From: a virus | Length of the DNA stretch: 36,967 nucleotides | Reading direction: 5' to 3' (one strand) | Virus record (IMG/VR): IMGVR_UViG_3300033148_001450 | Location: 1-36,967 of that record | Shown here: piece after piece, positions 18,483 through 36,967 of the stretch | Layout: each line of letters opens with the position of its first letter | Numbering within the stretch: the first letter of the stretch is position 1 | Made by a program: the position numbers and the translations under genes | Notes under the pieces: generated by a model | What the model saw: the letters and a program-made list of their open reading frames with translations, nothing else | What the model was told of the DNA's origin: nothing | The model's database searches: none

Positions 18483-21400
18483 ATGCCTATATTTCCACGA
18501 ATGGCTGTAGGAGCCCTTCCGACTACCACGCAAAGTCTTGACCCGTCTGTCGAACCGCAAAGTCCTGGGAGACAGTTAAACCCAAAGGCTGTAGACGCTC
18601 TGCGCGAGCTGTCCGCTTTACCGGAGTTCCAAGAACGCGTGTCGCCGGATAGACAGAAGAAAGTGCAGGCTATCTTAGCTGGAGTGGGTCCCGATTATAA
18701 GTTTTATAAGTATGGGATGGAATCTGGTCCTGGGGACATTGGTGTACTTCCGTGGGTCAATAAGAAAGTCAATCCATTTGTTCCGGACGAAGAGTTTGCT
18801 CCAGGAGAACAGAGTATTTATGGGGACATCTTCTCTCGTCAAGGAGCCGGTGTACGTGGAGCTATGCGTGCGCATGGGGCACAGCAGGCTTCAGCTAAAC
18901 CTGAGTTAGAGGCACTGGAGGCAGAGTACGAAGCTGCCCCAAGTTATCCAGGGAAGGGTTACGAGTTTCAGAAACGACGCCGAGATCTGCGAGCAAAAGC
19001 AGCGCAAGAATTTGAAGGAACGTCTCCTGGGCAAGCGTATTTGGAAGGTGTGTCGTATCCTAGATCCGTAGAGCCATTCCAAGGTGAAACACTGGATAAG
19101 TTCTATTCTCGCCCAGATATTTCCGAAGCTGTGGCACAAGGGGGTCTCCCTGAGTTGGGAGCAAATATCAGAGGATTTGGTGAATCGGCTAAAGGATTAG
19201 CAAGAGACATATTCTCGAATCCAGCAGACATCGCACTTATGGGAGCACCTATACCTAAATCTTTACAACGTGTAGGAGACGTTAAGGTTGGAAAAGGTTT
19301 CGTAAAAGGTTTGAAAGGAGCGGTCAGTCCTGGCAAGACCACGAAAGCCGGGGTAAGTGCCGCGGAAGAAACCATCAAAGCTAGCCTTGCTAAAGCTGAG
19401 GCTGCCGGTAAACAGTTTGAATTTCCATTTGCGAAGAAAACAGCTGAGCCCGTGGCTGCTCAGCCAGCGGCAGTTGGGGCTAAAGGACAGATGGAGTTCC
19501 CATTCGTTAAAGAGGCGCCTGTCAAACCTTCCGGTAAAGGGCAACTGGAATTTCCGTTTAAGGACGCGCCTGCCAAGGTCGCGAAGGGTCAGAAGACCCT
19601 CAGGTTTATGAAGAAGGGTATTAAAGACGGTATTACATCTCCAACTGTCAAAGACTTACCGCCTGTACCTAAGACCCCTAAAGCAGATGTCCGTCCTCAG
19701 TTCAAGACAGGTAAAGAGCCTAAACTTTTGAATTATTTGAACGAGCATTTCACAGGGCATCAGGTCGTGAGGATGGCTGACGCCGATCGTGTACGTTTAG
19801 GAAATATGACCGCGGCACAACTGCGGGATGAGATTACTGCAATGAAGAACGTAAAACTGGACAAGCCTAAAGTTACAAAGGAAGCAGTAACACCGTTCGG
19901 TAAGAAGATGCAGAAGCAGGCTGTCACAGGAGAGGAAGTTCCGCTCCATCCTGCTGCAGTTGGCAAAGCAGCAGAAGCTGCGCGTACTCCAAACATTATT
20001 GAGCAGGGCGCAGGAAAAGTATATGACAAGAAACCTGTAACTCCATTTGGGAAAGCCTTAAAAGGTAAGATGCACGCTAAGGAAAACGTGCCCCTTCATC
20101 CGGCACAAGAGGGCAAGCGTCAGTTAAAGAATATCGTAAAGCGTACACGGAAGAAAGGTCTTGGTAAGAAAGGTGAGGTTGATACAGATGTACGAGAGTT
20201 CACAAAAGTTGAGAAAGTAACTTTGAGCAATGTCATACGTGCAGTTAGGAAACATGTGACTAATGTATCAGATGACCCTCTTCACACATCCGTCATAACT
20301 CCTGAAGGAGTGCACATTGACGCCAGTCAATTTGAGCATTCAGAAATAATACAAATGATTAACAGCGTGTTAAAGCAAAACAGGTACATACCAAAGGGGT
20401 ACGTCCGCAAATCATATGATGGTGGGTATACTATTGGTGGGATAGACGATGTGGACGCAATCAGAGTAGTAGCACGAGACATTGATTTAGCGATATTTAG
20501 AAAAGGTTCGCGTCTTTCTAAAGGACCAAAAAAGAAAATAAAAGTTGATGTGGGTGCTGGAAACTCTGTTGAATTTACAGTGGATGAATTCTTAAACCGA
20601 GACAATTTCAAAAATTTCTTGACGAAAAAACATTCAACTGAAAATCTACGCCTTCAAGCACAGTATAAGCCGTCTAAACTCGGTAAGAAAGGTCAAGCAC
20701 GCTTCGACAAGATGAGCAAGGCAGAGCTGAAGAAGAAGTTAGCCGCTGCAGAACGCGCTGGTAACGATATGATGATAAATACGTACAAGCAGGCGATAGC
20801 TAATAAAGGGAAGGTGAATCCTTTGAAAGTAAAGAAGACAACTGTAGAATTTAAGCGTCCCCCGTGGCAAGAACTTTCGCCTCAAGAAAAAGCCATAGCA
20901 CTTGGTCAAAAACCAAAGAAACCTGCAAAACCTCTGAAAGACTTCGACAAATTGTCGTCGCAAGAGAAATCTATAGCACTTGGTCAAAAATATACTCCGG
21001 TTAAAAAAGTTATTAAGAAATTACGCGACAAGAAAGGGCAAGCCGAGTTCAAGGACAAGGATGCCGACGACCTGGTCGCTGCGTTCAGGAACGTACTTCC
21101 GGAGATCATCAAAGACGTGAAGAGGAACGGCGGAACCGTCATGGAACGTATCGCGTCTATGACAGACGACGCCGGTAAACCGTTGGCTAACAAGGCTGTG
21201 CTTGAGGTGATTGAGAGAGAAGTTGGGAACTCTGCCGCCGCTGCGAAAGCAGAGATCACGCGGCACGGTAACTGGAACCTGAAGAACATCAATGAGAAGC
21301 TCCGTAAGGCTGTCGTTGAGATGGCGGAACGGGATAAGTCTATGACCAAAAAGGGACCTACAATATCTGACGTGAAAGTCAAGAAGATGGCTGAGAACTT

Positions 21401-23378
21401 ACAAGATACCCCGACTATGCGAGCTATATTAGGCGGCAAACCTGGTAAGTTAGCAGCGGAAGCCCGCAAACAGGTGGACGATGCGGTCTCCGCACTTAAA
21501 GCGGTCCTAGAAGAGGACTTTGGTCCAGAGGGTCTCCAAAAGCAACTGAAAAATATGGTGCGAAGAAAACTCTCAGAACAAAAAGAAGTTGGAAGTCGAA
21601 TGGGACGTGCTTTTCGTCAACTCAAATTAGATGCTAATGATACTGCAGAGGTTAGAACAATTATTAAAGGGATAATAAATAAATATAAAAACGACCCCTT
21701 AATGCACCCGGATGACTTCAATGTTATTAACAAGAGTTTATTAAAATTGCAGGATGATTGGTTGAATACGTCTAACCTTAAGGAGTTTGAGGGTAAGGTA
21801 TATTATACGTGGCTAAACGGTCTGCTGTCTAACCCATTTACACACGGAGTCAATTTTGTCAGTAACGCCTCGTTCTTGTTAGAGAAGGTTCCAAACAGAT
21901 TTTTTGATATTCTTGGAGACGCTACCCTAAGAGGGGTAGCTCGGTCTAAGGGGGTTAAGCTAGACCCTGCGTTCAGACTTAAAGAGATCCCAGCTATGTT
22001 CCGTGGATTTAAGAGGTTTGTATCTCAGAGAATAAAAGGTAAGAGTCCTACTAGGTTTAGGATTAAAAAAGGCACCAAGCTCGATCAAGACATCCCGTCG
22101 CCATTATCTAAAGAGTGGGAGCGTATTATAGGAGCCCCTGTTCGCGCATTAAAGTCTAAGCATATTGGAGATGACTTATTCAAAGAAGCAATCGGGTATA
22201 TGGAGTATTACGCGCGTTGGGTAGCGGGAGAGCGCAAGGACAACCTTCTTAGTTCTGTATATCACGAACAGTTGCTTCGTACTTTTCAAGACGAAGCCAG
22301 CGTGTTAGGTAAAGGATTTATGAACCTAAAGAAAACGGTCCCTGGGTTCAAGTATATTATGCCGTTCATCAATACCCCAGATCGTATCCTCTTAAGGATA
22401 TTGGAACGGACTCTTCCGGGAGCTGTAACCAAGCTTGCGTTAAGGGTAGAAAGAGGAGCGTCTCAAAAAGAATTGGCACATAGTATAGGTCTCGTCTATC
22501 AGAGTGCTCTATTGACTGGGGTGGTAGCACATATTTGGTCAAAAGGGAAAATACAAGGGGACGCTCCTGAGGAGGAGGCGGAGCGTATTGCGTTCTATGA
22601 GTCCGGGAAGAAAGCTAATGCTATAAAAGTTGGGGATTACTGGGTTCCGTTTAACAGGGTTGAGCCTGCAGGTGGTACGCTATCTATTATGGCTAATTTC
22701 ATACAGGATAAGGAAAATTCTGACCAAGAGGCGACGCTTGAACAGATAGTTGAAGCGGTAGGCGGGACAACACAGTCGCTTGCGAATAAGACCTATTATC
22801 AAGGCGCCTTAGGACTTATGCGTGCCGCTACAGAAGCCCATATTTATGGGGGTAAGTGGGTGCAGAAAATGGTAGCAAGTGCAGTACCGGCATCTGGTCT
22901 GATGAGGTTCTTTGCACAGATCACTGACCCCGTGTACCGTAACCCTAGCAATACCGTAGAGAAAGTGATGAGTGGGCTCCCTTGGTTGTCTAAGAGTGTC
23001 CCTCCGACGTTAGGGTCATTTGGTGATGAGCAACCGCGCGCACTGTTAGGGATTGGTAAGGAGAAACAAGATCATCTGACCAAAGCACTCAGAGATACTC
23101 CTGTTCCAGTGTTAGGTAAAAGTGTTGCGGGTGAAAAGATGACTGTGCGCGAACGTAATTCTATTCTACTTAAATCCGGACCATTTCTTAAGAAGACGCT
23201 GACCATGGTAACGGGTGCTCCTGGGTGGGATAAGATTCCAAGAGGGATTAGGCAAGATGTCGTGGACAGATTGTCTGAGCAGATTCGCGGTGTGTTTAGA
23301 AGTGAGCTGAAGATGCAAAAGATTTATCAACAAATCAAGGACGATCCAAACGCTTACATCAACAAATTCTTAGAGTAA
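18483..23378 (+). CDS. Very large internal/ejection virion protein (1631 aa)
   Basis: CCAGGAGTAACCGA leads into ATG 18483. The first roughly 270 residues are a Pro/Gly-rich head. Residues about 310-600 are low-complexity and basic with repeated short motifs: EFPF three times (311-360) and VTPFGK twice (469 and 519). Further on, two LS-QEK-IALGQK repeats lie near 20875 and 20955. The C-terminal half is helical and carries a segment YTWLNGLLSNPFTHGVNFVS and later FKYIMPFINTPDRILLRILE, which is typical of giant phage polyvalent/ejection proteins. Its last nine bases overlap a convergent HNH gene. The motif arrays may be peptide docking or processing sites; no enzyme domain is certain. Confidence 0.75.
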   Translation: MPIFPRMAVGALPTTTQSLDPSVEPQSPGRQLNPKAVDALRELSALPEFQERVSPDRQKKVQAILAGVGPDYKFYKYGMESGPGDIGVLPWVNKKVNPFVPDEEFAPGEQSIYGDIFSRQGAGVRGAMRAHGAQQASAKPELEALEAEYEAAPSYPGKGYEFQKRRRDLRAKAAQEFEGTSPGQAYLEGVSYPRSVEPFQGETLDKFYSRPDISEAVAQGGLPELGANIRGFGESAKGLARDIFSNPADIALMGAPIPKSLQRVGDVKVGKGFVKGLKGAVSPGKTTKAGVSAAEETIKASLAKAEAAGKQFEFPFAKKTAEPVAAQPAAVGAKGQMEFPFVKEAPVKPSGKGQLEFPFKDAPAKVAKGQKTLRFMKKGIKDGITSPTVKDLPPVPKTPKADVRPQFKTGKEPKLLNYLNEHFTGHQVVRMADADRVRLGNMTAAQLRDEITAMKNVKLDKPKVTKEAVTPFGKKMQKQAVTGEEVPLHPAAVGKAAEAARTPNIIEQGAGKVYDKKPVTPFGKALKGKMHAKENVPLHPAQEGKRQLKNIVKRTRKKGLGKKGEVDTDVREFTKVEKVTLSNVIRAVRKHVTNVSDDPLHTSVITPEGVHIDASQFEHSEIIQMINSVLKQNRYIPKGYVRKSYDGGYTIGGIDDVDAIRVVARDIDLAIFRKGSRLSKGPKKKIKVDVGAGNSVEFTVDEFLNRDNFKNFLTKKHSTENLRLQAQYKPSKLGKKGQARFDKMSKAELKKKLAAAERAGNDMMINTYKQAIANKGKVNPLKVKKTTVEFKRPPWQELSPQEKAIALGQKPKKPAKPLKDFDKLSSQEKSIALGQKYTPVKKVIKKLRDKKGQAEFKDKDADDLVAAFRNVLPEIIKDVKRNGGTVMERIASMTDDAGKPLANKAVLEVIEREVGNSAAAAKAEITRHGNWNLKNINEKLRKAVVEMAERDKSMTKKGPTISDVKVKKMAENLQDTPTMRAILGGKPGKLAAEARKQVDDAVSALKAVLEEDFGPEGLQKQLKNMVRRKLSEQKEVGSRMGRAFRQLKLDANDTAEVRTIIKGIINKYKNDPLMHPDDFNVINKSLLKLQDDWLNTSNLKEFEGKVYYTWLNGLLSNPFTHGVNFVSNASFLLEKVPNRFFDILGDATLRGVARSKGVKLDPAFRLKEIPAMFRGFKRFVSQRIKGKSPTRFRIKKGTKLDQDIPSPLSKEWERIIGAPVRALKSKHIGDDLFKEAIGYMEYYARWVAGERKDNLLSSVYHEQLLRTFQDEASVLGKGFMNLKKTVPGFKYIMPFINTPDRILLRILERTLPGAVTKLALRVERGASQKELAHSIGLVYQSALLTGVVAHIWSKGKIQGDAPEEEAERIAFYESGKKANAIKVGDYWVPFNRVEPAGGTLSIMANFIQDKENSDQEATLEQIVEAVGGTTQSLANKTYYQGALGLMRAATEAHIYGGKWVQKMVASAVPASGLMRFFAQITDPVYRNPSNTVEKVMSGLPWLSKSVPPTLGSFGDEQPRALLGIGKEKQDHLTKALRDTPVPVLGKSVAGEKMTVRERNSILLKSGPFLKKTLTMVTGAPGWDKIPRGIRQDVVDRLSEQIRGVFRSELKMQKIYQQIKDDPNAYINKFLE

Positions 23379-23822: not shown

Positions 23823-25485
23823 AAGGCTCCTTCTCTGCCCAGTTCGTTGTAGTCTTCTCTATATTAACCTTGAGTGGAACGCGGAACGTCTCGTAATCCT
23901 CCATGATGTCTTTTATCTTTGGTAGGAGGCTATCTTCATCCTTGTGTATTTCAAATATAATTTCGTCGTGAACGCAGAGCAGCATATTACTTTTTTTATC
24001 AATCAACAATTCGTGGCACTCGATCATGGCTTTCTTTAATACACCGGCAGCACATCCTTGTATCAAGTACGAAACTGCGCGATAGGACTGGTCTCTTGGA
24101 CACGTGTACTTCTTTCCAAATATATCGTGTACGTACCCTACGTCTAAAACTTTTTGTGGGATTCTCCAAGTAAGTTCTCTGACCTTCCAGTAAGCCTTAT
24201 AATATTTATTGATAAAGCCACGTGCCTGAGTATACGTCATTCCCATTTCTGGGTACTTCTCATTCACCATAGTTACCAGTTTTTTGGCGCCCATACCATA
24301 TACGATACCGAAGTTGATACTCTTTGCTAAGTTTCTTTTTTCCTTCGTAACCTCCCCGAAGACGGCTTCACAGGTTCTGGAGTGGAGGTCGTTGTCTGTC
24401 TTGTTGTACTCTTCGACCATCTTAGGCTCTCTCGAATAGTGCGCAAGAATGCGTAGCTCAATTTGGGAATAATCAAAATAATAAGTAGTAAACTCTGGAC
24501 GACATATAAAAGCCCTACGCACATCAACAACCCCGCTTCTAGGAATGTTCTGTAGATTAGGCGAACGACAAGAAAATCTTCCCGTTCTGGCTCCGACTTG
24601 GAAGAAGTCGCAGTGGATGACTTTGTTGGCATCGGCTTTCTCCTGTAATGCGTCGAGGTACGTGGTCTTTATTTTCTCCAGACTGCGTAGCTCGACAATT
24701 ATTGGTATGAGTGGGTGGTCGTACTTGCTTAGGTGAAACTCGTCGAAGGCAGGGTTACCCTTATCTGTCAGATAGTCGCATGTCAACCCTTGGTCGTCAA
24801 AGAGGTACGAGGCAAGTTGCTTAGGGCTGCGTATGTTTATGTCTTTGTGGTCTCGCTTGATGGATTCCCTAAGCGCTTCAATCCGTCCGGCAATTTCGAC
24901 AGCATTCGTTTTACAAAATTCTGTGTCGATAAGGACCCCGAGTCGCTGCATACTAGCCAAGCATCTGAGGAGAGCCATTTCTTTGATATAGACGGGGTCT
25001 CCCGTAACGCCTTCTTTACGGTAGTACTTAAATAGGTCGAGGGTAATGCGAGAATCCTTTCGGGCATAAGGTTCGAGGATGCTTCGAGGTATGTCTGAAA
25101 AGCTAGAGATCTTATTTCTCCGCATATAATTTTTGAGTTCTTCTTCTTCGTCATTATCTTCTCCTAGGTATTTCTTAGCGAGGTCTTTCAACTTTACAGT
25201 ATTCTCGTCGCTGTTGTATATAGCGGCTGCAATCATAGTATCTTCTATAGGTCCTTTTATATCCATACCTATTTGGTTAAGCATGAGCCAGTCAAATTTT
25301 AGGTTGTGCGCCACCTTCCTGTAGTTTGAGGACATAAGGATAGTATCAATGGGGACAAGATTATCTTCCCCAATACTTATGTAGTCGGTATTCCCTTCCA
25401 TATCACACGTCGTTATGCAAAATGGTTTGTCTCCCTTAAACGGGTCGAGACCGGTTGTTTCAGTATCTATTGCGATAATTGGCAT
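23812..25485 (-). CDS. polA-like: Family A DNA polymerase with 3'-5' exonuclease
   Basis: This 557-residue replicative polymerase carries all the key motifs. The exonuclease has DTETTGLDP (D7, E9), HNLKFDW (D65) and YARKDSR (D144). The polymerase has TGRFSCRSPNLQNIP, motif A FDYSQIELR (D338), motif B KRNLAKSINFGIVYG (R384, K388, F392, Y396) and motif C VHDEI (H506, D507). The residue equivalent to E. coli Pol I 762 is Phe. The protein is shorter than T7 polymerase (704) and lacks a 5'-3' exonuclease. It is flanked on both sides by HNH genes with short overlaps. It is the likely replicase acting with the primase and helicase encoded upstream at 30282-27437. Confidence 0.97.
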   Translation of the reverse strand: MPIIAIDTETTGLDPFKGDKPFCITTCDMEGNTDYISIGEDNLVPIDTILMSSNYRKVAHNLKFDWLMLNQIGMDIKGPIEDTMIAAAIYNSDENTVKLKDLAKKYLGEDNDEEEELKNYMRRNKISSFSDIPRSILEPYARKDSRITLDLFKYYRKEGVTGDPVYIKEMALLRCLASMQRLGVLIDTEFCKTNAVEIAGRIEALRESIKRDHKDINIRSPKQLASYLFDDQGLTCDYLTDKGNPAFDEFHLSKYDHPLIPIIVELRSLEKIKTTYLDALQEKADANKVIHCDFFQVGARTGRFSCRSPNLQNIPRSGVVDVRRAFICRPEFTTYYFDYSQIELRILAHYSREPKMVEEYNKTDNDLHSRTCEAVFGEVTKEKRNLAKSINFGIVYGMGAKKLVTMVNEKYPEMGMTYTQARGFINKYYKAYWKVRELTWRIPQKVLDVGYVHDIFGKKYTCPRDQSYRAVSYLIQGCAAGVLKKAMIECHELLIDKKSNMLLCVHDEIIFEIHKDEDSLLPKIKDIMEDYETFRVPLKVNIEKTTTNWAEKEPYAV

Positions 25486-25907
25486 TCAAACTCCTTACGT
25501 GCTTTGGCGGCTTTATATTTAGTTTCAAAATATCCTATGGGAGTGTATTTTTTGTATACACATATTTGAGCGCGCCATTTTTTACGCAGTTTATCGTACG
25601 TCACCCCTTTATACCCGGACGTATTATTTATTGGTGCCCTAGAATTATGCCTATTTGTAGAGTGTGTGGCATATCGTAGATTACTAATTCGATTGTCTAG
25701 ACCATTCCTATTTTTATGGTCAACTAAAGAATCCTTATTTGGTAATATCAATTTGTGCATATGCTTTTTACGACCATTGACAGCACATTGTGCGTAGTAA
25801 GTATTTTTATTTTTATACCCCCACCAATGAAAGTCAGATAACATATCGTAATCCGCATCATCCACAATAGCGTAACGTTTTATATTTTTAAGATATATTC
25901 TTTTCAT
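25467..25907 (-). CDS. HNH homing endonuclease with AP2-type DNA-binding domain
   Basis: ATG 25907 is chosen because GGAGA lies just upstream (25915-25919); an upstream TTG-type start at 25946 would run into the structured RNA. Residues about 1-95 hold an HNH_3 core (MHKLILPNKDSLVDHKNRNG, LDNRISNLRYATHSTNRHN), with catalytic DHKN. Residues about 98-140 are an AP2-like domain (SGYKGVTYDKLRKKWRAQI, YKAAKARKEF). This is the standard HNH-AP2 mobile endonuclease. Its end overlaps the polymerase start by 19 bases. The RNA-like element at 25918-26090 ends directly at its ribosome site. Confidence 0.92.
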   Translation of the reverse strand: MKRIYLKNIKRYAIVDDADYDMLSDFHWWGYKNKNTYYAQCAVNGRKKHMHKLILPNKDSLVDHKNRNGLDNRISNLRYATHSTNRHNSRAPINNTSGYKGVTYDKLRKKWRAQICVYKKYTPIGYFETKYKAAKARKEFECQLSQ

Positions 25908-25917
25908 AATAAATTCT

Positions 25918-26090
25918 CCAGAGACAAGTGGGATTCGAACCCACATCTAACGGTTATATTATCCGTCGTGCTACACGAGGTCAGGTGGTAGATCGTTGCC
26001 TTGCCACCCTGTTTATGCGTGGGAACTGGAAAGAAACCACGACTAATACCCTTATGGGTTATTCTTTCACCCTTACATCATTGTCTCTGG
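25918..26090 (-). ncRNA. Large tRNA-like structured RNA element
   Basis: A perfect 10-bp closing stem is formed by 26081-26090 and 25918-25927 (CCAGAGACAA with TTGTCTCTGG). Stacked directly on it, with tRNA spacing, is a perfect T-arm (GTGGG, loop TTCGAAT, CCCAC; 25928-25944). Preceding that is an anticodon-like arm, GACGG/CCGTT, with a 9-base loop (25948-25966). The D-arm position is replaced by about 110 bases that fold into further hairpins (AATAACCC/GGGTATT; CAGGGTGG/CCACCTG; GTCGTG/CACGAC). It is too short for a tmRNA or a group I intron plus tRNA, and it has no normal D-arm. It could be a degenerate or expanded tRNA or a new phage RNA; the strand is inferred from the tRNA-like polarity. 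Confidence 0.55.
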
Positions 26091-26189: not shown

Positions 26190-26195
26190 AAAAAG

Positions 26196-26268
26196 TTGCG
26201 GGGGCAGGATTTGAACCTACGACTGTTTGGTTATGAGCCAACTTATCTACCAACTGATATACCCCGCA
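26196..26268 (-). tRNA. tRNA-Met (anticodon CAT)
   Basis: A complete cloverleaf is visible on the minus strand: acceptor TGCGGGG/CCCCGCA (7 pairs), D-arm TATC-AGTTGGTA-GATA, anticodon arm with loop CTCATAA, a 5-base variable region, and T-arm GTAGG-TTCAAAT-CCTGC. The discriminator is A and no CCA is encoded. The bottom anticodon-stem pair is G-A mismatched. Position 1-72 is a T-A pair, so it lacks the initiator-type mismatch. A CAT anticodon can also be an Ile2 tRNA after lysidine modification; the sequence alone does not exclude this. Confidence 0.92.
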
Positions 26269-27293: not shown

Positions 27294-27437
27294 TCATTCC
27301 CCCATGAATAGAACTGCTGTGTTAAGTGTAGCTGCAGCCATCCAGTACACCGTATGTACAGGCATTCTGTGCAACCCGTAGACTATAGAAGCCCCTAGAC
27401 TTAAAATTATAATTAAAATTGGAAATACAGCTACCAT
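27294..27437 (-). CDS. Small two-helix membrane protein (47 aa)
   Basis: AAAGGAGG precedes ATG 27437, which overlaps the helicase stop (TAATG). The 47 residues contain two hydrophobic segments, VAVFPILIIILSLGASIVYG and VYWMAAATLNTAVLFM, separated by a short His/Arg loop. It is the first of several tiny membrane genes. The family is unknown. Confidence 0.65.
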   Translation of the reverse strand: MVAVFPILIIILSLGASIVYGLHRMPVHTVYWMAAATLNTAVLFMGE

Positions 27438-28714
27438 TAAAAATCCTCCTTTAATTTCTTAGGGTCAGCGATGAACGCCTTTAACAGTTTGATGAACGCT
27501 GGTGTCTTGACATAAAACCCGTGCTTCTTCTTAACGCAACGGTTACGCAGTAGCGTAGAGAGCTGTCCCTTAGCATCATTATACTCTGAACCCGTGGATT
27601 CCTCTATATATCTGACAGTGAGCTGATAGTTGTCGATGAACTGGTAGCAAATCTCTTCGCCCCATGCCTTTAGCAACTTGTGGACCTTCTCTGGTTCCTT
27701 TATAATCTCTTCGCTCAGCTTCTTGTGAGAGAACATATTGTATCCGAAATGAGACTTGTCGTACTCCGTGTTAAGGAAGTTATAGATATATTCCACGTGC
27801 TCCGGCTTAACAATGACCTTCTCGCCAGTTTCGTCCGTGCTGAATAATCGACAAGCCAGGGCTACTGCTAACCTAGCCAGTTTGATTTTCTGTTCCATAG
27901 AGTTCACGATGGGGCAGTCTGACGAGTACTTCTTACTCATCAACTTGCCGTACATGTGGCACGCGTCGATCGTGGCAGCGTCTAGTCGTACCTGTTCGGC
28001 TTTTCTGCTCCAAGCCCACAACACTAAATCGTGACAGAGGTCAGTCGTATAGACGTGCGGGACGTTGGGCTGCAACCTTTCGTCAGCGTCGTCTTCGTTG
28101 ATCTCGTCTTTCTCCAGGATGACAACAAAATCAAACCGCGCAATATCCTCCGGCTTGCCGATTAAGTTCTCAATTATCTTTGTTCCAGATCCGAAATTGT
28201 TAATACTATCTGCCGACCGCGGGTTGCTAAGCCAAACCAAACGTGTCCTAGCAAGGGTTCGCTCAGTCTGGATTTTAGTAACTTCAGCGATACCGGAGCT
28301 ACGAAGGTCGGACATTTTGGCGATCTCTTCCGCAAGAATACCAGATACTTCATCAATAAAGAGAAGTCGTCCGTCGTTAAGAGGAATACGTCCCCACGAA
28401 ATACGCCAGCCAGTGCGAACTTGATGTAACCCACCGATGAGTCCAGCCGGTGTAGTGTTCTCGCCCGATGAGCGAGCTCCAAGACGGTAGTGTCCAACGA
28501 GTTTTTTTGAAGTTTCTGATTTCCCACAGCGCGTGTCTCCTATGATTAGAACTTCTGGGTATCCTTTTTCGATGAGCTTCTTTCCAAAATAGAACTGAAG
28601 AGGACTATGGTACACCAAGTCAATAGACAGATGAAGGTTAGTACGATTGTATATGCTAGTAACGTTGGTACTGATGTCAGCATAAATGGCATTTAATTTG
28701 TCTCCGATTTGCAT
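27437..28714 (-). CDS. MCM-like AAA+ replicative helicase (ATPase part)
   Basis: This 425-residue ATPase has the MCM order of motifs: Walker A GDTRCGKS (residues 59-66), SSGENTTPAGLIGG in the place of the MCM SG..S..GLT region, Walker B LLFIDEVSG (117-125), sensor-1 WLSNPRSA (161-168) and arginine-finger-type IARFDFVV (191-198). The C terminus is a likely winged helix (RCVKKKHGFYVKTPAFIK). It lacks the MCM N-terminal zinc/OB region, which appears instead at the C terminus of the overlapping primase gene. It is expected to unwind DNA ahead of the polymerase. The start is ATG 28714, 22 bases inside the primase gene. Confidence 0.85.
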   Translation of the reverse strand: MQIGDKLNAIYADISTNVTSIYNRTNLHLSIDLVYHSPLQFYFGKKLIEKGYPEVLIIGDTRCGKSETSKKLVGHYRLGARSSGENTTPAGLIGGLHQVRTGWRISWGRIPLNDGRLLFIDEVSGILAEEIAKMSDLRSSGIAEVTKIQTERTLARTRLVWLSNPRSADSINNFGSGTKIIENLIGKPEDIARFDFVVILEKDEINEDDADERLQPNVPHVYTTDLCHDLVLWAWSRKAEQVRLDAATIDACHMYGKLMSKKYSSDCPIVNSMEQKIKLARLAVALACRLFSTDETGEKVIVKPEHVEYIYNFLNTEYDKSHFGYNMFSHKKLSEEIIKEPEKVHKLLKAWGEEICYQFIDNYQLTVRYIEESTGSEYNDAKGQLSTLLRNRCVKKKHGFYVKTPAFIKLLKAFIADPKKLKEDF

Positions 28715-30282
28715 TGAAAGATTTCCAATCTCTTTTTAAGGTCAGGGGTCATTTTAAACTCTTCAATAGATGAATCTGCAGGCTGTACTTCGTAGACCAG
28801 ATGTACCAACGTCTGATTCTTTGGGTCTGGCATAGCGATGGAACGTATCTCATAATCCATGTTTGCTTCTATCGGATAGGACAGGACGAACAAGTCACGT
28901 TCCACGTACTTCTGGTTGAAGTCGGCTGTATCGAACGAAAGGTCGTCGATAGCAGGTATGACTGAGCAACGTGTGATACCTTGGTGATCTGTTTCTTTGA
29001 TTGAAAACTTCTTACACGAAGATAACTGGAATAAATCTCCGATTATGTGCCTACGCTCCCTAGTGGTGCACTCTATAAGTTGTAAAATCTCCGGAGTGGC
29101 TTCGTTAATCTCTTTGAAGTCTGTGTGCGCTGACTTCCCAGCTAATGGACACGTGTTACATGCGTTCTTAGAATTGTCCATGTTGCACGTAACACCGATA
29201 GTTTTTGGGATAATAGACGGTGCTGAATCCTTGGCTATGACACGGACGTTCATCCTGGAGCGTTTGTAGAACAGACGTTCCTGAGAGACTTTATCCAGTG
29301 ACACATCATACACTTCGTCCGGTATGTCGATCGGTCCGGATGATTCTGGTTTGGATAGAGGTGAGTCTGTTATGAGCGCTCTAAAATCAATAGGTGTAGC
29401 GCCCTTCATAATCCAGTCTGTGTAGTCCGCGTTATGCGGCTCTGTGATCGGAAGGTCTACGACACGTACACTGCGTGCTATGTCCAGTAATAGGTGCGCT
29501 ACTTTTCGTGCCCCTGTCCTACCAGCGTCGTCGATGTCATAGCAGAGGACAACGTCTTTGTCGCGGAAAATCTCTTTCCACTCCGACTTAAAGGTACCAG
29601 CGCCCCCTGTTACAGTGACAGCATTGAATCCGTGTTGATTAGCTAGGATACAATCCTTTTCCCCTTCCATAATAACGACCTCTCGCTCTTCGAGATTCTC
29701 GTATGGAAATAGCCTTATCTCGCTGTGACCCATTATCTGTGTCATCTTAGGGTCGCCCTGTGGAGCGTACTTTCGTACGTTTACCAGAACGCCATGTTCC
29801 TTAATTGGTATCCAGTACCGTTTGGTCTGAGCGTCATACCCGATCTCATACTTTTTCATAACGTCCAGAGTCCAGAACGTATGGTCTGTGAGATACTGTA
29901 TCCGTTCCGGATGGTTCATCAGTCCGGCTATGCGTTGGTCGATGTCGTCCTGTCGGAGTGGGAATACTTTTGTGGAAGCGGGTGGCTTGCGCTTCTTAGG
30001 TTCTGGAGGAGCTGAGGCTTTGGCGTCCTTTTTAATTCTGTCGCTGGCTTCTGTTATGGGTATATCTTCAATGACAGATAGGAACTTAGCCATACTCCCG
30101 CCACTTCCGAGCTTACAGCTACTGTTGAAGCACATATAGAGCCCTGTACCAGTGTTGAAGCTGAATGAGGCAGTCTTATCGTCGTGGCAGGGACAGCAGG
30201 CGACCACTTCGTCGCCCGTTGCCCGTGCCTCGTCGAGATTGATGTGTCTTCCGTAGAACTTTTTTATGTAATTGGAATCCAC
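28693..30282 (-). CDS. DnaG-type primase with MCM-N-like C-terminal region
   Basis: The start is GTG 30282. Residues about 30-56 form a CHC2-like zinc site (C30-x2-H33 ... C51-x4-C56). Residues about 201-270 are a TOPRIM domain: VVIMEGEKD (E206) and CYDIDDAG (D249, D251, D252). These make RNA primers. Residues about 335-529 are unusual for a primase: NVRVIAKDSAPSIIPKTIGV, a cysteine cluster CNMDNSKNACNTCP (C366, C375, C378), further beta strands, and a terminal EEFKMTPDLKKRLEIF resembling the MCM linker before the ATPase. This suggests the MCM N-terminal domain is fused to the primase. The end overlaps the helicase gene by 22 bases. Confidence 0.88.
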   Translation of the reverse strand: MDSNYIKKFYGRHINLDEARATGDEVVACCPCHDDKTASFSFNTGTGLYMCFNSSCKLGSGGSMAKFLSVIEDIPITEASDRIKKDAKASAPPEPKKRKPPASTKVFPLRQDDIDQRIAGLMNHPERIQYLTDHTFWTLDVMKKYEIGYDAQTKRYWIPIKEHGVLVNVRKYAPQGDPKMTQIMGHSEIRLFPYENLEEREVVIMEGEKDCILANQHGFNAVTVTGGAGTFKSEWKEIFRDKDVVLCYDIDDAGRTGARKVAHLLLDIARSVRVVDLPITEPHNADYTDWIMKGATPIDFRALITDSPLSKPESSGPIDIPDEVYDVSLDKVSQERLFYKRSRMNVRVIAKDSAPSIIPKTIGVTCNMDNSKNACNTCPLAGKSAHTDFKEINEATPEILQLIECTTRERRHIIGDLFQLSSCKKFSIKETDHQGITRCSVIPAIDDLSFDTADFNQKYVERDLFVLSYPIEANMDYEIRSIAMPDPKNQTLVHLVYEVQPADSSIEEFKMTPDLKKRLEIFQCKSETN

Positions 30283-36173: not shown

Positions 36174-36836
36174 CTATCCGTGTACTACATTCATGTGATT
36201 GGCGTTCTGGAAGTCCATACGCATGACGTTATGTATGCGCTTGCCCTCCATGAGAAGCCGTGTGTTGTTAGCTATCATAGAAGCTATCCATAGCACGTTG
36301 TACATTACTGCTTTCTGTGTGCATGGTAGCTCGCTTGCTTCTGTTTCACTCCATAGGTACTGCAGGTATATGCGCTTGTCTTCTGATTTACGCAAGTCCA
36401 CTGTGTACACCTCTGCCTGCTGTCCCCCCATGCGCCCATCTATGAAGCTGTCCACGTCTACGTTGCGCTTTACAGCGTCGAAGATGTGCTTGCGTACTAC
36501 CATGCTGTCTACTGCCATGATGACATGACCGGACAGTGCTTCTGTCGCCCAGTTGTGCCGGTAGTATTTGATCTGTATGTCCTCAAAGTCATGTACCATG
36601 CCATACAGAGCTTCTGCCTTATTCTTCCCTACGTCGCTGTACCGGTAGAACTGATTGCTTATGTTCTCTTCCCCGACGCTGTCATTGTCATATACAGTGA
36701 TGTCGTGGAAGCCCATCTTAGCTAGTGTTAGTGTCGTGAATGACCCGATAGCCCCACAACCTATAACGGTTATGGGGTTCTCGAATATATCAGGGTTCAC
36801 TAAGTCAGCTTGTCGTGAGCGTCTTAGTTCTGTCAT
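36174..36836 (-). CDS. ThiF/E1-like adenylyltransferase-family protein (220 aa)
   Basis: ATG 36836 is preceded by AGGAGGACAGC and overlaps the previous stop (ATGA). The nucleotide-binding motif ITVIGCGAIGS (residues 23-32), the acidic strand end TVYDNDSVGEENISNQFY (47-64), and later AVDSM and ELPCTQKAV (C172) match the ThiF/MoeB/E1 family. These proteins adenylate the C terminus of a small carrier or modify a peptide. No beta-grasp carrier, E2 or JAB gene is in view. It could act in a ubiquitin-like or PRTRC-type system, or in host modification. Confidence 0.85.
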   Translation of the reverse strand: MTELRRSRQADLVNPDIFENPITVIGCGAIGSFTTLTLAKMGFHDITVYDNDSVGEENISNQFYRYSDVGKNKAEALYGMVHDFEDIQIKYYRHNWATEALSGHVIMAVDSMVVRKHIFDAVKRNVDVDSFIDGRMGGQQAEVYTVDLRKSEDKRIYLQYLWSETEASELPCTQKAVMYNVLWIASMIANNTRLLMEGKRIHNVMRMDFQNANHMNVVHG

Positions 36837-36967
36837 GCTGTCCTCCTGTTCCAGTGGTCTATGGCGTCGCCTATGTTCTTGTGTATTGTCTTTACACCAC
36901 ATATGCTACAACGAACATGACTGCGCCTTGTTGTTTTGTATGTCACTATGGTTGGTGTTGCTATGGC
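36833..36967 (-). CDS. Lar-like zinc ribbon protein (5' end outside window)
   Basis: The frame is open from the window edge to TGA 36833-36835. The visible end, VRCSICGVKTIHKNIGDAID then HWNRRTA, has the second half of a Lar-family zinc ribbon: C-x2-C-G, a short strand, a helix A-I-x-x-W-N-x-R. A first C-x2-C pair would lie beyond the window. Lar proteins alleviate restriction by the host. The family is also common in phages with unknown roles. The stop overlaps the ThiF-like start (ATGA). Confidence 0.75.
   Translation of the reverse strand, partial: AIATPTIVTYKTTRRSHVRCSICGVKTIHKNIGDAIDHWNRRTA

Follow-up and report, generated by a model that had tools for sequence, protein, structure and literature searches.

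MCM-type helicases are the kind used by archaea and eukaryotes. The archaeal and eukaryotic enzymes have in common with the proteins described here, as judged from structure matches, an N-terminal tier made of an OB fold and a zinc domain and a PF00493 AAA+ motor; they differ in having this N-tier on the motor's own chain, in carrying a helical A-subdomain and in having no attached primase. The helicases of T7 gp4 and of DnaB are RecA-type enzymes that move 5'->3' and are not MCM proteins. T7 gp4 and bacterial DnaG/DnaB are a functional parallel to the present locus, as one- and two-component primase-helicases whose primase side bears a collar-related domain, and a model for the evolution of these forms has been discussed (PMC12593628). 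An AEP-MCM primase/helicase fusion is already known from a Bacillus cereus prophage (BcMCM; PMC4538821, PMC5862659). The closest relatives of our locus are fused DnaG-MCM phage proteins (PHROG 18685), such as gp47 of Microbacterium phage AnnaSerena, the protein of Bacillus phage BSTP5 and the IMG/VR sequence L030. As in BcMCM, the primase is fused ahead of the MCM motor; that of BcMCM is archaeo-eukaryotic and not DnaG/Toprim, and BcMCM is unsplit. The DnaG-MCM proteins possess the same three modules in the same order as our locus, share 35-47% identity with it in the AAA+ part and likewise have replication and recombination genes as neighbours, but each is one polypeptide of ~915-1030 amino acids, whereas our locus consists of two overlapping genes. 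In the literature that we searched, neither fusions of DnaG to MCM nor an MCM divided between its collar and its motor had been described.

A primase and an MCM motor in two overlapping genes

The window, meaning the whole stretch of 36,967 nucleotides analysed here, is a linear IMG/VR virus record in which both genes lie on the minus strand. An initial annotation had described an MCM-type helicase divided between these two genes, and its coordinates, strand, lengths and 22-nt overlap were all confirmed from the open reading frames (ORFs). The N-tier and the AAA+ motor are thus not on one chain, being encoded by two ORFs in different frames. The features are as follows.

28693..30282, minus strand: DnaG-type primase with the MCM N-tier as its C terminus, 529 aa, GTG start
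30019..30222, minus strand: CHC2 zinc ribbon, primase residues 21-88 (PF01807, E 1.2e-9)
29449..29682, minus strand: Toprim catalytic domain, primase residues 201-278, with EGEKD and DIDDAG motifs
28696..29307, minus strand: predicted MCM N-terminal tier (OB and zinc domain), primase residues 326-529 (AlphaFold2, Foldseek, phrog_18685)
29014..29187, minus strand: probable four-Cys zinc site, C366-C375-C378-C423, invariant in 52 relatives
28693..28714: overlap of the primase and helicase genes, 22 nt, helicase in the -1 frame relative to the primase
28724..28726, minus strand: weak Shine-Dalgarno-like GGA upstream of the helicase start, duplex energy -3.3 kcal/mol
28711..28719, minus strand: conserved start context TTTCAATGY, the Phe-Gln-Cys codons of the primase enclosing the helicase start codon
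27437..28714, minus strand: MCM AAA+ motor gene, 425 aa, ATG start (PF00493, E 4.1e-7)
28073..28663, minus strand: MCM P-loop ATPase region, helicase residues 18-214 (Pfam match)
28517..28540, minus strand: Walker A GDTRCGKS, helicase residues 59-66 (motif inspection)
27479..27697, minus strand: C-terminal region, probable winged helix, helicase residues ~340-412 (pattern in the fused L030 model)

A promoter scan around the two genes gave matches at chance level only.

The assignment of the first protein to the DnaG-type primases holds, as Pfam detected both Zn_ribbon_DnaG (E 1.2e-9) and Toprim_2 (E 1.9e-8), and the CxxH...C...C, EGEKD and DIDDAG motifs are all intact. The archaeo-eukaryotic primase domain PF01896 had no match in the window in the Pfam search. 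The C terminus is not the DnaB-interacting domain of DnaG, its place being occupied by the MCM N-tier. Residues 326-529 matched no Pfam model, and searches with PDB HMM and MCM_OB profiles also left them without a match; residues 335-525 matched positions 393-583 of the 1028 of PHROG 18685 (E 3e-18). This region was modeled with AlphaFold2 on 52 aligned relatives (window and IMG/VR sequences only), with a pLDDT of 90.9. MCM chains made up all 50 of the PDB matches listed by Foldseek, the best with E 3.6e-8 and probability 1.00, at a moderate TM-score of 0.41-0.51 by query length. The model therefore bears out the earlier reading of residues 330-529 as an MCM N-tier, on which sequence HMMs alone are silent, and residues 326-529 carry, as modeled, an MCM OB/zinc tier. 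The stretch NVRVIAKDSAPSIIPKTIGV, quoted earlier for its strand pattern, covers two predicted beta strands, and the three-cysteine cluster (C366, C375, C378) is joined by C423 in a four-Cys set that is invariant across the 52 relatives and is probably a zinc site. The two genes had been said to cover a whole MCM, which is too strong: the OB/zinc tier and the AAA+ part are present, but neither of two models (the window N-tier and L030) shows a helical A-subdomain in the stretch from the Toprim domain to the first OB strand, and this subdomain seems to be absent from the phage N-tier.

The second protein matches PF00493 (MCM) above the cut-off (E 4.1e-7), with MCM5 among its PDB matches. Together with the intact Walker A (GDTRCGKS, 59-66), Walker B (LLFIDE, 117-122), sensor 1 (SNP, 163-165) and arginine finger (RFD, 193-195), this upholds its identification as an MCM AAA+ motor. 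Its C terminus is probably a winged helix, since the homologous region of L030 shows a fitting helix and two-strand pattern in the secondary structure of the fused model. The helicase matches positions 590-1009 of PHROG 18685 (E 7e-59), next to those matched by the N-tier, so the two genes cover one family; judged from these profile alignments, such adjacency is far above chance.

Other genes of the window include a tRNA-Met gene (anticodon cat, 26195-26268) among the replication genes, an HNH and AP2 domain protein that is homing-endonuclease-like and adjoins the PolA gene (25467-25946), an ORF fusing an HNH endonuclease-like part (phrog_2340) with a Pam3 gp33-like domain (PF23984; 30995-31750), a ThiF-family (E1-like) protein close to the record end (36174-36902), and a 1631-aa ORF lacking a convincing Pfam match (18483-23378).

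Fused relatives and the position of the break

Fused versions in related phages, whose survey had been suggested, were found in number. A tblastn search of phages gave 50 records for the AAA+ part and 41 for the N-tier, and a scan of IMG/VR found 208 relatives, of which 80 were kept. DnaG, N-tier and AAA+ stand in one ORF in 73 of the 88 rows compared, these single-ORF relatives coming from IMG/VR and from isolated Microbacterium, Arthrobacter, Bacillus and Weizmannia phages. In public annotations the phage relatives are called DNA primase or primase/helicase, and some of the DnaG type are called 'primase small subunit'; among L013, L014 and L015, DnaG-MCM fusions are labelled 'DNA primase small subunit' (BSTP5, Youna2) and, in MW202657, 'DNA directed DNA polymerase'.

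The fused relative L030 (941 aa) was modeled by AlphaFold2 with a pLDDT of 87.3, and the model aligns to nearly full-length MCM chains over 550-740 columns (E 1.2e-24). The two window proteins map onto it end to end, primase residues 7-524 on L030 7-513 and helicase residues 3-412 on L030 516-930. The break falls between the helices 502-511 and 516-532 of L030, that is, in a short loop between the last N-tier helix and the first AAA+ helix, so that no structural element would be cut.

Other arrangements also occur. In Bacillus phage vB_BboS-125 an archaeo-eukaryotic primase (PF01896) precedes the same MCM N-tier and AAA+ part, both detectably homologous to those of the window by tblastn; two non-homologous primases thus stand ahead of one helicase family. 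In L047, L080 and L082 the N-tier and AAA+ part share one ORF that has no DnaG part. Each of the L080 and L082 proteins (L080:3514-5772, L082:3595-5781) is an MCM that has an N-tier of its own, and ahead of it lies a brief segment resembling a relic of the DnaG core, with neither zinc ribbon nor Toprim.

Conservation of the break

The break is common to seven distinct phages (the window, L001, L020, L021, L022, L023 and L046), the other six being 48-81% identical to the window, with L001 at 81%. They form one clade (support 100/99). Their overlaps range from 10 to 55 nt and have the same -1 phase throughout, and in all seven the second gene has its start codon inside the Gln-Cys codons of a ...FQC sequence; in L021 this start is GTG, within a variant of the TTTCAATGY context, TTCCAGTGC. 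Beyond FQC, the primase tails are mostly unconserved except in the close pair of the window and L001. Shine-Dalgarno-like sites with a duplex energy of -6 or stronger precede the second gene in four of the seven (that of the window is weak), whereas just 6 of the 64 homologous sites of fused genes have -5 or stronger. Between the window and L001, the DnaG part has a dN/dS of 0.07 and the AAA+ gene one of 0.115; in the N-tier the synonymous sites are saturated and pN is 0.117. The primase and helicase halves are both under purifying selection.

Further breaks lie outside this clade. In L037 the two genes overlap by 26 nt and the split is in the other phase, and gaps of 675 nt and 612 nt separate the primase and AAA+ genes of L040 and L098. 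Two small genes occupy the gap in L040 (L040:3811-4485), the first ending in DDDIPF, which resembles the acidic tail of a single-strand binding protein. In L025, the primase with its N-tier is separate from the AAA+ gene, with one of the two at each end of a linear contig. In the tree, L040 groups with the fused L062. In scans with L037 and L098 as queries, the only sequences returned were L037 itself and fused relatives of L098. An AU test on ten split sequences, from which the long-branched L098 was left out, rejected one common origin for all splits (p-AU 0.028). A similar break appears to have arisen independently at least once more, giving at least two origins; the number is uncertain, because L098 is long-branched and outside the AU test and the L025 pieces lie at unjoined contig ends.

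A proposed two-piece primase-helicase and its alternatives

Since most related phages encode a single chain, the split can be seen as a natural two-piece version of their primase-helicase. We consider it probable that the two genes encode the phage's own replicative primase-helicase, a single-chain DnaG-MCM broken in two whose parts would associate as a primase-MCM ring. The ancestor would have been a one-chain DnaG-MCM, broken at the loop between N-tier and AAA+. The first product would be a DnaG-type primase ending in an MCM OB/zinc collar and the second an MCM motor, with AAA+ and probable winged helix, whose translation would begin within the end of the first gene. Collar and motor most likely bind through the normal MCM N-tier/AAA+ interface; if they do, six primase-borne collars would sit on one motor ring, presumably a hexamer, and would keep the primases at the fork, where priming could occur. 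The motor ring would translocate 3'->5' along the leading-strand template. Docking of the collar on the motor ring, bringing the primase to the fork, is the most economical reading.

It is unlikely, in our view, that the two products are independent enzymes, a stand-alone AAA+ helicase and a primase whose OB/zinc tail serves as its grip on single-stranded DNA, with no joint complex. Such a motor could work, as the AAA+ domain of SsoMCM suffices and that of A. pernix MCM unwinds DNA alone (PMC4359371), and the genes are non-adjacent in L040 and L098 and at opposite contig ends in L025. However, the two pieces meet precisely at the boundary between the MCM domains and neither linker helix is lost, they form one chain in most relatives, and the genes are neighbours throughout the split clade. 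Unwinding by the AAA+ part of PfMCM alone is negligible, and a chimera of the N-domain and AAA+ part of two archaeal MCMs is an active helicase (PMC4359371); these data suggest that the collar is a modular part worth keeping, one that can help the motor ring.

Programmed -1 ribosomal frameshifting, by which the frames would be joined and some full-length DnaG-MCM would still arise, perhaps only in minor amounts, is very unlikely. All seven clade members have the helicase in the -1 frame, the direction of the commonest programmed shifts, and L023 has one in-frame slippery heptamer (AAAAAAC), but a canonical in-frame X_XXY_YYZ heptamer is missing from the overlap of the other six, including the window, for which the lack of a convincing slippery site had already been pointed out. 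The conserved element is a start codon within TTTCAATGY rather than a slip site, and neither the other phase of L037 nor the ~610-675 nt between the genes of L040 and L098 fits a -1 shift. With no slippery site common to the clade, two separate proteins are expected from the sequences, as the initial annotation had anticipated; given also the conserved internal start, the Shine-Dalgarno-like sites and the purifying selection, two functional proteins are the best reading. That the break reflects gene decay or an error of sequencing or assembly can practically be discounted: one extra base in an A5 run (CTTAAAAAGAG), precisely where the -1 frame opens, would join the frames, but the same geometry in L001 and five further distinct phages rules out a sequencing error as the cause of the split, and both halves are under purifying selection with all catalytic motifs intact.

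A wider reading, on which we are nearly evenly divided with a slight leaning against it, is that breaks at the collar/motor boundary have occurred repeatedly among the MCM primase-helicases of phages, yielding two-component primosomes with the helicase's N-terminal ring on the primase. This would independently replay the passage from a T7-like single chain to separate DnaG and DnaB, and translation could set how much primase-collar is made relative to motor. For the two-piece primase-helicase proposed here, a replicative helicase would be naturally split exactly between its DNA-gripping collar and its motor, which would make the role of the MCM N-tier for the motor testable by mixing two native proteins. 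In phages, MCM motors have been joined to primases of two unrelated kinds, DnaG and AEP, and one-chain primase-helicases can become two-chain ones, a point that bears on the discussion of T7 gp4 versus DnaG/DnaB.
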